A stretch of DNA of 64,000 bases from a bacterium. GTDB lineage: Bacteria > SZUA-79 > Acidulodesulfobacterales > Acidulodesulfobacteraceae. The notes below the pieces were generated by a model. It was given only the letters and a program-made list of their open reading frames with translations, had not been told where the DNA came from and made no database searches. Position 1 is the stretch's first letter; each line of letters starts with the position of its first letter. A program made the translations under genes and the position numbers. This document shows, one piece after another, positions 258 through 62,177 of this stretch. Location: the NCBI GenBank assembly GCA_021845685.1, contig JAJZVN010000006.1, positions 1-64,000 on the forward strand, written 5' to 3'.

Positions 258-765
258 CGCGCAGCATAAATAAATAAACAAATACGCCGCAACCCCATTT
301 GTCAAGGCAATTTTTAATCCTTAATCATGCAATAGAAAATAATCTTATTTCACATACTTAAAATAGCCGAATTTATTATGTACCTAACTTTTCCTTATTT
401 TTTATGCAGGACATTTGAACTTCCTATTTTTATTAAATATTTTTATATATTATCTTTATTTGTCCTGTATATCAATATACAGGACATTATCTATTTTATA
501 AAATAAGTAACATAATAATATCGCATAGTTATAATGTAATGTATAAAATTGATAGAAAAGTTAGGTATGTAATAAGTATATTAAAATAGCCACCAATTGT
601 GGCGTAAAATTTTCTATCGGCAATTTTTGACGCATATTTAATATATCTTTAGTATAAATTTTGGTATATAATAATAAAATAAATGCTAATTTAATTTAAT
701 TTAATTAGTATTTATTTTATTATTTATTATTTTTTTATTATTAATAATAAGGAGGTTTATTTAAA
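258..765. other. Intergenic region with a MITE copy and a repeat-end relic
   Basis: This 508 bp gap contains a relic at 316-335 (AATCCTTAATCATGCAATAG) matching the left end of the REP-bearing element at 23197, and MITE family A copy 1 at 381-567. The remainder is A/T-only-like sequence leading to a strong ribosome binding site (AAGGAGG, about 749-755) for the next gene. I see no additional coding frame. Confidence 0.6.
381..567 (-). mobile_element. MITE family A, copy 1 (inverted relative to the others)
   Basis: This ~187 bp element starts TACCTAACTTTTC and ends GATAGAAAAGTTAGGTA, so its ends are inverted repeats flanked by TA on both sides. Its interior carries the palindrome TGTCCTGTATATCAATATAC followed by AGGACA. 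The reverse complement aligns along its full length with the copies at 17765, 51065 and 62844. TA flanks on all copies are the expected target duplication of IS630/Tc1-mariner transposition. There is no open frame of note inside, so movement would need a transposase from elsewhere. Confidence 0.8.
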
Positions 766-20811: not shown

Positions 20812-21909
20812 TTAATCTAAATCAGAAATAAGATATATTGCAATAAATAAGAAAACTATATCTGCCGTAAATGCGGCTAAAACTGGATTAAGTTGGGAGC
20901 TTACCCCTAAAGATATTGCAATTGAATTTATTATCCAGTAGCCGAATGCTAAAATTATACTAATTCCTATGGCGGCAGAAGTCCCCGATTTTTTGCCTAC
21001 GATAATACCTATGGATATTCCTATAAGAACTAAAACTAAATTTATTAAAGGAAATGCAAATTTTGAATATATAAATGTCTCAATTAAACTTAAATTTGAG
21101 CCTGATTTTTTAGCTACGTTAAACATTTTAAAAAGATTAAATATTGTTAAAAATTCTAATTTTAAATCATAAGATTTAAAAAAATTTATATTAAGATTTA
21201 TAGGAAGACTTGTTATTTTAAGATTTTTTGCAAATGATGGATAATGCCGTTTTTGATTAAAATTATTTATTATTACATTGTTTAACTTTAATATTCCTTC
21301 AGAAAAATATCCGTTTGCAGCATTATATCTTTTAGTAAGTTTAAATTTATTATTAAACTTATATATACTTAAGCCCGTTAATTGTTTTTTAGATATATTT
21401 AAGGTTTTGGCAGTTATAATATATTTTTGATAATGTATCGCTATATTTCTTGTTTTAAATTTATAAATAGATTGTGCGCTGTAATTATTGTTTTTATTTA
21501 TATATTTTTGCATAACTATTCTTCTTTCTATATTTGTTTTTACTGCTATAAAATTTGAAAGCGCAAAAGAAAATATTGATAGTCCTAACGCAGTTGCAAT
21601 TAATGGAGATGTGAATTTCAGCATACTTATGCCGGAAGATTTTATGGCTATAATTTCATTATTTTTATTAAATGAAATAATTACCAGCATTGTTGATAAC
21701 AAAATTGATAAAGGTAAGATTCTATATATTATTTCAGGAGATTTAAGAAGAAAATACAGAATAATATAGCTTAAATCTGGAGAGTGTTTAGTGAATGTTG
21801 CCATATTAGATATGAAATCAACAATGATATAAAAAAAAGACAAAGAAACTATTGAGATAAATAATACTTTAAAAAATTCTTTAAGCAGATAATTTCTTAA
21901 TATTTTCAT
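20812..21909 (-). CDS. lptG: LPS export permease, LptG-like (YjgP/YjgQ family)
   Basis: This is a 365-residue inner-membrane protein with three N-terminal and three C-terminal membrane segments around a periplasmic beta-rich domain (roughly residues 120-260), the layout of LptF/LptG. 'NNEIIAIKSSGISMLKFTSP' near residue 80 is the cytoplasmic coupling helix that contacts LptB. Its ATG overlaps the stop of the upstream lptF gene by 4 bp. I assign LptG by gene order; the two paralogues are hard to tell apart by sequence alone. Confidence 0.87.
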   Translation of the reverse strand: MKILRNYLLKEFFKVLFISIVSLSFFYIIVDFISNMATFTKHSPDLSYIILYFLLKSPEIIYRILPLSILLSTMLVIISFNKNNEIIAIKSSGISMLKFTSPLIATALGLSIFSFALSNFIAVKTNIERRIVMQKYINKNNNYSAQSIYKFKTRNIAIHYQKYIITAKTLNISKKQLTGLSIYKFNNKFKLTKRYNAANGYFSEGILKLNNVIINNFNQKRHYPSFAKNLKITSLPINLNINFFKSYDLKLEFLTIFNLFKMFNVAKKSGSNLSLIETFIYSKFAFPLINLVLVLIGISIGIIVGKKSGTSAAIGISIILAFGYWIINSIAISLGVSSQLNPVLAAFTADIVFLFIAIYLISDLD

Positions 21910-22997
21910 TTTATAGATGCCTTTATATATAATATAGCACTCGCGGCGAGAAGAATAATATCCGCCCCGAAAACTCCTATAATAGGATTAAAGCCGGTTT
22001 TAATTGAAAAGTATAGACCTGAAGTAAATAAAATATAATATAAAACAACGATAGCTATAGTATAAAATATAGCCATAAACATACTTCTTTTTTCCGACAG
22101 CATTGCAAGAGGCAAACCGATAAATACAAAAAGTATTACGGCGATTGGGATGGCAATTTTTTTAAGTATGTATATTAAATAAATATTTTTAGCATTGTTT
22201 TTATCACTTGCAGAATTATATTTAGAAATAAGCTGTGAAATAGTCATAAAATGCACCGAATCATTTTTAGAAGGAAATGAAAGCCCCTTTAATCTTATAT
22301 TTATCCTGTAAGTTTTAAAATTCAATAGCCAGAAATTTTTTTTAGATCTGTATTTGTTTTGAATCTGACCATTTTTTAAATAAAAAGAAATTAAATTTTG
22401 TTTTTTATTGTAAACAATATATCCTTTATTTGCTATTAAAACCATAGCATTATTTTTAATTTTATATAATATAAAGATACCTTTTATAGACGATTTGGCA
22501 GGATTTACATGTTTTATAAATATTTTATAGTTTCCAAATTTATTAGAAAAAGTATTTTTTTTTAAAGCTGAGAGCACAGCTTGTTTTATTTCTTTAACAG
22601 CCATCACTCTAAAAAAATAATTAAACCTTGGAGCAATATAAAAAGAAAAAAGAATTGAAGCAAGCAGAGGTATTAATGAAAACAGCAGCGCAGGCTTCGT
22701 TAATCTCCAGATACTGACGCCCGAAGCTTTTAACGCCATTATTTCATTGTCCTGAGTCATTTTGCCGAACACTACTAAAACTGCAAGCAAAAACGAAATA
22801 GGCAATGTTATTATCATAAAATCAGGTAAAGTTAAGCTAGCAAGTTTAATTACCGAAGTAATGCTCACACCTTTGTTTATAACCATTTCAGTGAGCATTA
22901 AAATTCTGTTGGTAATTATACTGAAAGTAAATATTATAAGTCCGAAAATAAAAGGAGGAATAAATTGTTTAAATATGTGTCTATCTATTAAAGACAT
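21906..22997 (-). CDS. lptF: LPS export permease, LptF-like (YjgP/YjgQ family)
   Basis: This 363-residue protein has the same architecture as its neighbour: 'MSLIDRHIFKQFIPPFIFGL' start, coupling helix 'DNEIMALKASGVSIWRLTKP' near residue 80, a periplasmic domain and three C-terminal membrane helices. It overlaps lptG by 4 bp (ATGA), so both are translated together as expected for subunits of one heterodimeric transporter. lptB and lptC/lptA are 7-11 kb away on the other strand. Confidence 0.88.
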   Translation of the reverse strand: MSLIDRHIFKQFIPPFIFGLIIFTFSIITNRILMLTEMVINKGVSITSVIKLASLTLPDFMIITLPISFLLAVLVVFGKMTQDNEIMALKASGVSIWRLTKPALLFSLIPLLASILFSFYIAPRFNYFFRVMAVKEIKQAVLSALKKNTFSNKFGNYKIFIKHVNPAKSSIKGIFILYKIKNNAMVLIANKGYIVYNKKQNLISFYLKNGQIQNKYRSKKNFWLLNFKTYRINIRLKGLSFPSKNDSVHFMTISQLISKYNSASDKNNAKNIYLIYILKKIAIPIAVILFVFIGLPLAMLSEKRSMFMAIFYTIAIVVLYYILFTSGLYFSIKTGFNPIIGVFGADIILLAASAILYIKASIK

Positions 22998-23554
22998 AAT
23001 TTTTTCAAAATATAATTTAAAAATATATTAAATAATATATTAAATAAGAAGATAATTTTAGTATATAATAATAAATTATTGACTACTTATAATAATAATA
23101 TTAAAATTATAATTGTAAGTAATAAAATATTATTTAGCTATACCGTCAATTTTATAAGTATATCAAAATTATACTTTAATTTAAAGCTATGATTTAAACC
23201 TTAATCATGCGATAGGCTTTTATATTCTGGATTCCTGCCTGCGCAGGAATGACTTTGAGATATTTTATCTTTTTACCCATTTGGTGTCATTCCCGCGAAA
23301 GCGGGAATCCAGAGTTCTTAAAATATTGCTGTATATTTAATAATTTCTATTGCAGGATTAAGGTTAAAGCTATGATTATTATGATATTTTGTTATATTAT
23401 GTATATTTATATATAATTTAATATTTATAATTTTAGTATTAATGATAGCAGTTGATAATTATAAATAGAATAGCAAGATAAAATCAATTTAAATAACTAA
23501 ATTTAAATTTATATATTTAGTTTTGCCTTTTATATTATATAAGGAGAAACTGCT
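22998..23554. other. Divergent intergenic region holding a REP-bearing element
   Basis: This 557 bp gap between divergent lptF and the pseudo-receiver gene contains the composite palindromic element at 23197-23365. The rest is A+T-rich and must contain both promoters, though no confident -35/-10 pair stands out. A GGAGAAA ribosome binding site precedes the gene at 23555. Confidence 0.6.
23181..23377. mobile_element. REP-bearing palindromic element flanked by a 14 bp direct repeat
   Basis: The element has imperfect terminal inverted repeats: AACCTTAATCATGCGATAG (23197-23215) and CTATTGCAGGATTAAGGTT (23347-23365). Inside are two REP-like hairpins, ATTCCTGC-CTGC-GCAGGAAT and ATTCCCGC-GAAA-GCGGGAAT. 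Outside the ends, TTAAAGCTATGATT occurs on both sides (23181-23194 and 23364-23377), overlapping the right end by 2 bp. A 14 bp flanking repeat looks like a target duplication. Decayed relatives are at 316, 32499, 36053 and 61951. Confidence 0.72.
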
Positions 23555-25081
23555 ATGGCTTATGAAATATTATATGTAGATGATAGCGACGCAATGCAAA
23601 AAACGGTATCGATGATTTTTTTGGATAACGCTGAATTTAAAATAACTCCTCTTTATGACGGTTCTTCCCTGATTGCAGTACTCAATAAAAGCATTCCGTC
23701 AATTATTATTGTTAATTATAATATAAGTAATGCGATTAGCTATAATATGCTAAAGGAAATAAAAAACAACAGCTTGTATTATAACATACCTATTTTGCTG
23801 GCTGCCCCTTCAGATTTGCCTAATAGAGAACGGGAACTTTTTGTTGAAGCAGGTTTAAACGGTTTTATATATAGACCTTTTGATAAAGAAACTTTTATTA
23901 ATAAAATAAAACGGTCTTTAGGTTTAAATATCAATGAAGATAAAATTTATGATATTGCTGAATTTGAAAAAAAGACTGAAGATGATAATAACAAAAATAT
24001 TGAATCTAAAAACCTCGAAAATTTTGCAAATGATAACAATACTCCGATAAATACAGGTCAGGAACAGTATTTTGAAAATATGGAAAATGATAGTAGCGAT
24101 GCTGCTATAAATAAAGACACAAAACAGGATTCTGCCGAATTAAGCGAAGCGTTCGAGAATCTTTTTAAAGATGATAATATTTTTAAAGAATTTCAAGATT
24201 TAAATAAAGAAAATGATAAAATAAACAATAGCACCATAGATAATTTTAATGATGACAGACTAAGCGCTTCAGAGGATATTTCTGCCGATAGCAATAATGC
24301 CGCAGAGATAATAAGCGACGCACATGATAATTCTTCCGACTATAGTAATAATGCCGCAGAGATAATAGGCACATCGGAGGTTATTCAGCCTGAATTTGAA
24401 AGCGTTAGAAATATTGAAGCAGGAATTAACTATGAAGATAAAGAAATGTTAAAAAATCGACAGGCAGATTCAGATGATGTAATTATTGAAACAGAAACAG
24501 AAGAATATAATGAAAACGGTATAAACCAAAATGCAGTTAATGATACAAAAATATCAGTTGAAGCCGAAGGATATAATAAAGACAACGGCGATAATGATAA
24601 TGATAATGATAATAAAATTAACGAATATATGTCTAAAATTATTATAAATGAAGATATTGGAGTTGGCGATAATATCCGCAGTATAAATTTTATAAATAAT
24701 AATAGCGAAGAAAATACAAATGCGGAAGTTGAGGATACTTCAGATATAAGTATATTGGAGCTTAATTCGGCAAATGAAGCAGAATTTAATATAAATACAC
24801 CTGAAGTTTATGATATTCAAGAATCTAACCGCTATAATGACAATAGCATTGTTAATTTTACAGATAATACTAATGAAAAATATAAAGGAGGGGAAATAAA
24901 ATTGGAGTTTCTAAATGATGAATTTTTTGGTAAAATGGATGAATATTTAAAAAAATCAATAGATGATATGATTAAAGATATGAAGCCTGAAATAATTGAA
25001 AATATTAAAAACATATTGCCTGAAATTGCAGAAAAATTAATAAAAGAAGAAATAAATAAAATTAAAAATGAAAATATTTGA
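23555..25081 (+). CDS. Degenerate response-regulator receiver protein with long acidic tail
   Basis: This 508-residue protein starts with a receiver domain (residues 1-123): 'ILYVDDSDAMQKTVSMIF' keeps the acidic pair Asp9/Asp10, but the phospho-acceptor position is asparagine (IIIVNYN, Asn54) and the conserved KP lysine is arginine (YRPFDKE). It is unlikely to be phosphorylated in the usual way. Residues ~130-450 are low-complexity and rich in Asn, Asp and Glu with little predicted fold. The last ~50 residues form an amphipathic helix-rich segment (MKPEIIENIKNILPEIAEKL) similar to C-termini of some deltaproteobacterial receiver proteins. The final 14 bp overlap nadC. Function is unknown. Confidence 0.75.
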   Translation: MAYEILYVDDSDAMQKTVSMIFLDNAEFKITPLYDGSSLIAVLNKSIPSIIIVNYNISNAISYNMLKEIKNNSLYYNIPILLAAPSDLPNRERELFVEAGLNGFIYRPFDKETFINKIKRSLGLNINEDKIYDIAEFEKKTEDDNNKNIESKNLENFANDNNTPINTGQEQYFENMENDSSDAAINKDTKQDSAELSEAFENLFKDDNIFKEFQDLNKENDKINNSTIDNFNDDRLSASEDISADSNNAAEIISDAHDNSSDYSNNAAEIIGTSEVIQPEFESVRNIEAGINYEDKEMLKNRQADSDDVIIETETEEYNENGINQNAVNDTKISVEAEGYNKDNGDNDNDNDNKINEYMSKIIINEDIGVGDNIRSINFINNNSEENTNAEVEDTSDISILELNSANEAEFNINTPEVYDIQESNRYNDNSIVNFTDNTNEKYKGGEIKLEFLNDEFFGKMDEYLKKSIDDMIKDMKPEIIENIKNILPEIAEKLIKEEINKIKNENI

Positions 25082-32267: not shown

Positions 32268-32498
32268 ATGCCTAAAATCTATGCAATAATTTTTTAAAAA
32301 AATAAAATGATTATTTTTTATGCAATATTTTTAATAAAAAAATGATTAAATTTAGTTTAATTTAGCATATAATTTTTATTTTTAAATTTTATATTTATTA
32401 TTTTTAGCATTATTTTAAAATAAATCTGAATAATTTTTTGCCGACCTTCGTCTTCAAATAATATATATTTTATCCATCAAAGCAAAGCAAAGCAAAGC

Positions 32499-32571
32499 CA
32501 TTCCCGCTAAAGAGGGAATTCAGCGTCCGTTAACTCTGAAATACCTCAATATTTTCTCATGCAGAATTAAA
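32499..32571. repeat. REP-element relic
   Basis: CATTCCCGCTAAAGAGGGAA forms the REP hairpin with one imperfection. The segment ends in TGCAGAATTAAAG, which matches the right end of the element at 23197-23365 (TGCAGGATTAAGG). The left end is missing. Confidence 0.6.
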
Positions 32572-36052: not shown

Positions 36053-36129
36053 AACCCCGCAAAGTCGTTTCCGCAAAGTGTGAATCCAGTATATAAAATT
36101 CTATTGCAGAATTAAATGCAGAATTAAAG
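36053..36129. repeat. REP-element relic between convergent genes
   Basis: AACCCCGCAAAGTCGTTTCC and GTGAATCCAG are decayed forms of the REP hairpin region seen at 23280-23310, followed by CTATTGCAGAATTAAA matching the right end of that element, with TGCAGAATTAAA duplicated once more. It occupies half of the 156 bp convergent gap. Confidence 0.6.
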
Positions 36130-55732: not shown

Positions 55733-56158
55733 GTTGATAAGATATTAATAAGAGATTAATAGTATACTAAATTTAAATCACCGTTAGAAATTATTAAAAC
55801 TGATTCAACATATGATAAATACTGGATTCCTGCGTTGGCAGGAATCCAGAAAAAGAAATTTCTAACGGTGATTTAAGGACTAAAAATAATTTATTTAAAA
55901 ATTAAATAAATTAAATATTTTAATTAATTTAAATTAACTATTTATTAAATTTATTATTTATTAAAAGATAATTAAACAATATTATTATTATTTATATTTA
56001 ATTAAGCTATAAGTAATTTCTAAATTATTTCATTATTTTATAATAATAGCTTTATATTTTATAATAATATATTAATAAATATAAAAATACTTAAATTATA
56101 TCCTAAATTTTAATTTACTTTAATTTTAATTTAAAGGCAACCTGCCTTTAAATTAACT
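55733..56158. other. Convergent intergenic region with a nested inverted repeat
   Basis: This 426 bp gap contains the nested palindrome at 55773-55876. The remaining ~280 bp are almost only A and T. Confidence 0.6.
55773..55876. repeat. Nested inverted repeat carrying a REP hairpin
   Basis: TTAAATCACCGTTAGAAATT (55773-55792) is perfectly complemented at 55857-55876. Inside, CTGGATTCCTGC and GCAGGAATCCAG form a perfect 12 bp stem with loop GTTG (55822-55849). The inner hairpin is the same REP motif as at 23229 and 62011, but the outer ends differ. It could be an independent element or a bidirectional terminator between the HAD gene and the FmdB-like gene. Confidence 0.7.
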
Positions 56159-61742: not shown

Positions 61743-61911
61743 ATATTAAATTGAATAGTTAAAATAAGGGAAATAAAATATTATAATATTTTATATTAAT
61801 CCTTACATATTTTTATCTTTGATATTAATAATAAAAATATTAAATAAATATTAAATTAAATAGTTCAAATAAGGGAAATAAAATCTTATAATATTTTATA
61901 TTAATCCTTTT
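61701..61911. repeat. 105 bp tandem duplication at the 3' end of the transglycosylase gene
   Basis: The segment beginning CATATTTTTATCTTTGATAT is at 61701 and again at 61806, with about 105 bp per unit and a few substitutions. The first unit contains the last 14 codons of the gene, and the second repeats them out of context beyond the stop codon. Confidence 0.85.
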
Positions 61912-62177
61912 ATAGGAAATGTTTTAGATATTTCAATACCAAATAACACTGAATTCCAGCATATGCGGGAATGGCACCCAAAGGGTGAAGGTTTAAATCC
62001 CCGCTAAGTCATTCCTGCCCACGCAGGAATTCAGAATGTAAATTTATATTGCAGGGGGACACCCCCCCCTTTGACCTCCCGAAAGTAATATATATAATTA
62101 AATTATATAATAATTCTTCGTAGGAGGATTAAAATTTTATAATAACAATAATATTATTAATGAGGTTTTCATTTAAT
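61743..62177. other. Intergenic region with duplication, REP pair and C-run
   Basis: This 435 bp gap holds the second duplication unit, a REP pair at 61951-62036, and an oddly GC-rich patch GGGGGACACCCCCCCC at about 62056. An orphan ribosome-binding-like AGGAGG (about 62122) is more than 30 bp from any start codon. Confidence 0.6.
61951..62036. repeat. REP pair (REPIN-like)
   Basis: GAATTCCAGCATATGCGGGA begins a decayed REP hairpin, and ATTCCTGCCCACGCAGGAAT is the second. The spacer CACCCAAAGGGTGAAG corresponds to ACCAAATGGGTAAAAAG in the reverse complement of 23229-23313, showing that the two-hairpin unit is shared. The TATTGCAGGG at 62048 is a decayed right end of the same element. Confidence 0.7.

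Follow-up and report, generated by a model that had tools for sequence, protein, structure and literature searches.

A MITE carrying a pair of CGTC-like REP hairpins between ends that resemble those of IS1380-family elements

Introduction

REPINs consist of two REP sequences in inverted orientation, separated by a spacer, and are spread genome-wide. Among the insertion sequences, the IS1380 family is characterized by target duplications of 4-5 bp and the IS1634 family by duplications of 5-6 bp. In the sections of Di Nocera et al. (2013, PMC3733652) used here, CGTC-1 REPs are described as having an 8-bp stem beginning with AT, a 4-nt loop and a CCA tail, and as occurring mostly as HH dimers. 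According to the same sections, CGTC REPs seem to be without a dedicated transposase, and all CGTC-1 dimers of H. neapolitanus lie inside 41-bp palindromes, which were taken as targets (PMC3733652). A REP inside a MITE is already known, the precedent in the sections of PMC5896051 used here being QMITE2 of Coxiella burnetii, a MITE of 150-190 bp with a GTAG-type REP inside. Here we describe a REP-bearing element in a bacterial window, i.e. the whole stretch of 64,000 nucleotides that was analyzed, together with its relatives in the same genome and in other genomes of the bacterial family.

Results

Between the divergent open reading frames 21906-22997 (minus strand) and 23555-25081 (plus strand), the latter a response-regulator gene, the window contains a 165-bp non-autonomous element (MITE) with CC...GG ends and 17-bp terminal inverted repeats (Table 1). 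A sequence-only reading of this DNA had reported two REP hairpins enclosed by an outer inverted repeat and flanked by a 14-bp direct repeat. All of these parts were found. The direct repeat TTAAAGCTATGATT is exact on both sides, the outer inverted repeat spans 22 nt with 86% complementarity (23194-23215 and 23347-23368), and the two hairpins lie inside it, in 28-nt arms that are likewise 86% complementary to each other. As is characteristic of a MITE, the element is without a transposase gene, and its ends are paired and change together. The hairpins correspond to a CGTC-1 REP dimer in stem, loop, tail and facing tags, as far as these are given in the text of PMC3733652 used here. In the window copy the tags read TGTC in one REP and AGTC in the other. 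Each half of the element also gave a sub-threshold Rfam match to the Francisella sRNA FtrB (23171-23271 on the minus strand and 23249-23348 on the plus strand; 32.9 and 29.5 bits, gathering score 66); FtrB may itself contain a hairpin of this kind.

Table 1. Positions in the window of the element, its parts and its further copies
Feature	Position	Strand	Remark
Whole mini-transposon (MITE), 165 bp	23199..23363	-	family orientation, long arm first
Left 5-bp target duplication	23194..23198	.	sequence TTAAA
Right 5-bp target duplication	23364..23368	.	sequence TTAAA
Left terminal inverted repeat, type A	23199..23215	+	CCTTAATCATGCGATAG
Right terminal inverted repeat, type A	23347..23363	-	minus strand reads CCTTAATCCTGCAATAG
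REP hairpin 1	23227..23253	+	CTGGATTCCTGC-CTGC-GCAGGAATGAC, GTC tag inward
REP hairpin 2	23286..23312	-	GTCATTCCCGC-GAAA-GCGGGAATCCAG, GTC tag inward
Left copy of 14-bp flanking repeat	23181..23194	+	outside element, read as first 13-bp tandem unit
Right copy of 14-bp flanking repeat	23364..23377	+	overlapping 5-bp target duplication
Type A end without REP hairpins	319..338	+	
Decayed copy	32497..32570	.	one REP hairpin and one type A end
Decayed copy	36063..36117	.	degenerate REP and one type A end; approximate limits
Decayed copy	61899..62032	.	both REP hairpins, one of the two ends lost
Second two-ended copy	55771..55878	.	type B ends, single fused hairpin, ACTAA target duplication

Partial copies had been listed at positions 316, 32499, 36053 and 61951, and all four are present, each keeping a different portion of the element. 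The second two-ended copy was absent from that list; its site is empty in the sister genome G002.

Furthermore, the size of the family was assessed. A search of the home genome (3.04 Mb in 199 contigs) with the region gave at least 42 matches, and 40 of 240 first-look candidates were scored. With up to three mismatches, the type A end pattern TTAATCCTGCGATAGAAA, to which the window copy belongs, occurs 118 times in the genome and the type B pattern TTAAATCACCGTTAGAAAT 130 times. Since the reversed patterns gave only 4 and 3 matches, respectively, these numbers are not due to chance. Five end types, A to E, were distinguished in total. The elements typically start with CC or a near variant of it and end with GG; five type A copies are identical except for one outermost base in one of them.

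Two-ended elements were collected from stretches of five large contigs and one small contig of the home genome (825 kb including the window, about 27% of the genome), from 400 kb of the congener G003 and from 400 kb of G009, which belongs to another genus. Together with 21 loci the DNA examined yielded 86 such elements, i.e. 39 on the own contigs, 8 in G003, 18 in G009 and one for each locus. Most of the 21 loci, including L105, had been fetched for their resemblance to the window; the remaining 65 elements belong to stretches that were used in their entirety. The set includes L083, an ortholog of the window copy. The window-like locus L110 lies outside the stretches and is not among the 86; its flanks, compared by eye, are AAATA and AAATG and differ at one of five bases. 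Among 47 distinct elements the two ends change together, with 106 both-side changes against a shuffle maximum of 57, both counted without correction for relatedness. Nearly all own elements (38 of 39) avoid open reading frames of at least 120 aa, which cover 79% of the own sample.

Insertion duplicates 5 bp. An exact 5-bp repeat is found directly outside the ends of 50 of the 86 elements, where swapped flanks predict 1.49, and an exact 6-bp repeat in seven more. Taken together, 57 elements carry a repeat of one of these lengths as compared to 2.1 expected, and 29 carry neither. The duplicated target letters are mainly A and T. The family thus shows the 4-5-bp duplication of the IS1380 type, which in the window copy reads TTAAA/TTAAA.

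The sequence-only reading had also regarded a long flanking duplication as a property of the element. This view was not upheld, as flanking repeats of at least 12 bp are present in only four of the 86 copies, and the numbers of exact 5-bp and 6-bp repeats rule out a 14-bp target duplication as a family trait. Four such copies nevertheless exceed the 0.21 expected, and the long repeat of the window copy is not fully explained. Besides the window copy, the long repeats belong to L105, to an element at G003:C2:212494 and to an own copy at C108:175766, which lies in a microsatellite. L105 (G003:C3:393149-393295) has type A ends and a perfect 26-bp direct repeat that adjoins both ends and falls outside the 5-bp rule; it could have arisen by unequal recombination between two nearby insertions or by a wide staggered cut. 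The copy at G003:C2:212494-212674 is a type A MITE with a 23-bp direct repeat that starts 31 bp off.

In the window, the 14-bp repeat is longer than the TTAAA duplication and overlaps it, and its left copy is 4 bp away from the element. When the element and one TTAAA are removed, two adjoining 13-bp units TTAAAGCTATGAT result. Because TTAAA adjoins the window copy on both sides, the 14-bp repeat can probably be traced to a 13-bp tandem unit that contains the 5-bp target.

An alternative is that the 14 bp are the preserved part of a true target duplication of about 18 bp, the duplications of the family being variable and sometimes long. The excess of long repeats, all counted from the right end, and the perfect 26 bp of L105 would fit this explanation. 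It would also fit that the sister genome G002, which shares the window insertion, has 18 bp beside each end that match within 15%, while its 5 bp are not exact (left TTATA, right TTAAA). A further point in its favor is that the five congeners without the window insertion (G001, G003, G004, G005 and G006) have TTAAAGCTTTGATT only once, immediately preceding the ribosome site of the response-regulator gene downstream. However, a duplication of this length does not sit well with the distance of the left 14-bp copy from the element and with TTAAA adjoining both ends, nor with the majority of copies having exactly 5 or 6 bp and with one of the four long cases lying in a microsatellite. Moreover, the window lineage and the genomes with an empty site do not have the same sequence beside the gene: a stretch of about 170 bp that separates the element from the response-regulator gene (window 23378-23545) is also present in G002 and missing in the five congeners, so that the sequence before insertion is not readable from these genomes. 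We consider an 18-bp duplication unlikely and keep to the 13-bp tandem unit.

For a comparison with the sister genome, both flanks of 56 own elements were looked for in 400 kb of G002. Both flanks were found together for 13 insertions, of which 4 are present, 7 absent and 2 changed in G002. At four of the seven absent sites there is an overlap of exactly 5 bp between the flanks, which is what an empty site should show. These four include the window copy at 55771-55878, L011, whose left flank also aligned a second time, with a gap of 116, and C108:42629, whose 5-bp flanks are unequal (TATTA/TATGA). As read from the two genomes, this comparison shows recent movement.

That the outer ends and the inner REPs belong to one mobile unit, as had been concluded from the partial copies, is supported by the paired ends carrying 5-bp duplications and with the dispersed two-ended copies. 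A DDE transposase using these ends had also been envisaged, and such an enzyme was found at the level of the IS1380 family; no full-size copy whose ends are exactly of type A turned up in the home genome or among the loci examined, and the three IS1380 copies of the home genome have ends of types B, B and D. Two of them (C21 and C192) are elements of about 1.6 kb with type B ends on both sides and a DDE transposase gene. The pieces of this transposase match NF033539, the IS1380 family, with E values of 1.2e-48, 1.5e-14, 3.7e-48 and 4.1e-10, each piece staying below the whole-protein cut-off and both genes being frame-broken; the transposase also matches PF13701 (Pfam DDE_Tnp_1_4). The third copy, C161, is intact, encodes 416 aa and has type D ends. 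Assignment to the IS1634 family was rejected, the match being weak and partial (23.3 bits, cut-off 100).

The PF13701 transposase family was detected in 9 of 30 genomes of the bacterial family. Fourteen of 26 fetched IS1380 loci were examined, the remainder being short or overlapping pieces. MITE-like ends are present at 12 of the 14, namely type B at four, D at three, C at three, E at one and an end near type A at one; for one of these loci, L114, the matching pair is the second-best inverted repeat, and the type C match is clear over only about 13-17 bp. The other two loci, which are partial copies, gave no MITE-like ends. Full-size IS1380 elements thus have ends like those of the MITEs, types B and D in the own genome and types C, E and near A in the bacterial family. 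The IS1380-family transposases of L078 (type D) and L118 (type E) are intact. Flanking repeats were seen by eye in 5 of 11 printed IS copies and measure 5 bp in L118 and L121 and 6 bp in L079, L080 and L113. Short relics of an L118-like transposase are present in the own genome, G002 and G012. G009 and G024 contain many REP pairs, yet gave no match to PF13701 or to the L118 transposase; in these genomes the mover may have been lost, or another enzyme may be responsible. Judged by its ends and duplications, the window element is very probably a MITE that is moved in trans by an IS1380-family transposase.

A different enzyme would be involved if the element were a REPIN and a RAYT (REP-associated tyrosine transposase) its mover, with the outer repeats being incidental or palindromic targets of the REP pair. 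Like those of REPINs, the REPs do form inverted pairs whose spacer hardly varies, and some REPs stand alone, with no end nearby for 4 of 90 in the own sample and for 10 of 46 in that of G009. One RAYT-like protein is encoded in the genome (76.8 bits, cut-off 80), and RAYT matches were obtained in 12 of 30 family genomes, none of them above the cut-off. However, the 5-bp duplications adjoin the outer inverted repeats and not the REPs, so the mobile unit does not end at the REP hairpins; the two ends change together and resemble IS1380 ends, and elements with type A ends that are devoid of REPs still carry duplications. The search for a RAYT, which the sequence-only reading had suggested, led to the RAYT-like gene L032 (G000:C75:22490-22819), and no REP hairpins are present in the 3.3 kb around it. 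In G009 and G024 many REP pairs coexist with the lack of any RAYT match, and a RAYT gene flanked by the same REPs was found neither there nor at L032. On the basis of the duplication position, the paired change of the ends, the REP-less elements and the genome distribution we reject the RAYT-driven REPIN, the probability of which we regard as minimal.

The relation of the REPs to the IS1380-like ends was analyzed as well. Among the 90 REP hairpins of the own sample, 59 lie inside two-ended elements, 4 have neither end, and 27 have one end-like sequence within 130 bp, a distance within which 27.7% of random positions on one contig also have such a sequence. The 46 hairpins of the G009 sample are distributed over two-ended elements (30), sites with one end (6) and sites with neither (10). 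The sample of the congener G003 contains 8 elements, all of them with type A ends but devoid of REPs; 7 carry a 5-bp duplication. Because of these elements the REPs look like cargo. Three G003 loci (L102, L104 and L105) have a different interior between type A ends, with repeats of the AAGGTGTCAGATT kind instead of REPs. REPs were found in none of 12 IS1380 spans checked. At L128 (G045:C77), an IS1380 element that is broken into several pieces and has type D ends is flanked on both sides by a REP pair (149-231 and 2748-2830).

The interiors were compared in 54 of the 86 elements, those of 150-185 bp with both REPs; 4 of the 54 were dropped before both-side changes and core identities were counted. 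Most of the 54 share one geometry, and an 86-bp core is present in 47. Between elements with different end types, the sequence outside the REPs is 54% alike in the long arm and 59% in the spacer, as compared to 34% and 29% after shuffling of positions. Thus, the interiors are related. In the short arm there is little signal (74% versus 69% shuffled). Core identity between own and G009 elements is 0.70 for the same end type (37 pairs) and 0.73 for different end types (293 pairs); within a genome the values are 0.88 and 0.74, respectively. Copies with two different ends were also found, i.e. L004 (A/B), L011 (A/E), the own copy C191:6604 (C/B) and C1:123003 of G009 (A/D). From these comparisons we infer that the interior acquired new ends on more than one occasion.

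One could also assume that the element is kept by selection for a function of its hairpins, e.g. in transcription end, RNA stability or as a small RNA, mobility being secondary. The weak FtrB matches over the two halves are compatible with this, and so are the REP stems, whose pairing is retained in 13 and 15 both-side changes, where shuffling gave 9 at most for each (47 distinct elements). Constraint could account for the stem signal, but so could descent from two old stem types, and neither REP-REP pairing (14 both-side changes versus a shuffle mean of 18.2) nor spacer pairing (1 versus 0.7) shows an excess. The positions of the copies also count against this explanation: the neighbor genes of the 37 classified intergenic own copies are co-oriented in 21 cases, divergent in 13 and convergent in only 3. 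As decayed copies and REP-less elements exist in addition, we regard maintenance for a hairpin function as quite improbable, and transposition by an IS1380-family enzyme remains our preferred explanation.

Finally, the distribution of the REP pairs was determined. They are present in 18 of 30 genomes of the bacterial family and in 3 of 7 within the home genus, and the forward REP-pair pattern matches 59 times in G009 and 23 times in G024. The exact pattern gave no REP pairs in 17 genomes of the phylum of G027, and the single REPs in four G027 pieces, inspected by eye, lack such ends. No copies were found in phage records; the search of plasmid and phage records returned one partial match, to a Photobacterium record, covering 52% of the query at 76.5% identity.

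Discussion

In the mechanism that we propose for the window element, an IS1380-family transposase would bind both ends and move the 165-bp unit. Insertion would occur at a staggered 5-bp cut in AT-rich intergenic DNA, gap repair of which would give rise to the 5-bp duplication. The two CGTC-like REP hairpins would be carried along inside the unit as a passenger. As for the 14-bp repeat, its extra 9 bp would most likely be due to a local 13-bp tandem repeat around the target and not to transposition.

On a more tentative note, CGTC-type REP pairs might be a cargo cassette that was passed between IS1380 lineages by end exchange, its geometry being kept and mixed-end copies being left behind; REP pairs in long palindromes elsewhere, e.g. 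in H. neapolitanus, may then be MITEs of the same kind. We put the chances of this extended proposal at somewhat less than even. At the level of titles and the beginnings of abstracts, with few subscription journals covered, a CGTC REP pair as cargo of an IS1380 MITE was not found in the literature.

The element suggests how REP hairpins thought to be without a mover of their own could spread in these bacteria. In the sections used here, Di Nocera et al. (2013, PMC3733652) left the movement of CGTC REPs open; a candidate carrier is now visible and can be tested directly. The element also shows that, where longer ends enclose a REP pair, these should be examined as possible transposon ends before the name REPIN is applied.

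When compared with known systems, the element shares with REPINs and their RAYTs the paired inverted REPs with a spacer and the spread through the genome, whereas further ends follow beyond its REPs, the duplications are located outside these ends, and a link to a RAYT was not found. With IS1380-family insertion sequences and MITEs it has in common the CC-ended inverted repeats and, where seen, flanking repeats of 5-6 bp. In contrast to the full-size IS1380 copies, with which it shares, by eye, the ends only, its interior is a REP pair. QMITE2, according to the sections of PMC5896051 used here, is likewise a MITE of 150-190 bp containing a REP, but this REP is of the GTAG type and serves as the insertion target of IS1111, and the direct repeats measure 7-11 bp. 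The CGTC-1 dimers, as presented in the sections of PMC3733652 cited above, agree with the window element in the 8-bp stem starting with AT, the 4-nt loop, the inward GTC tag, the CCA tail and the spacer. The palindromes around them were taken as targets, whereas the hairpins described here are enclosed by transposon-like ends that carry duplications and resemble the ends of IS1380 elements.
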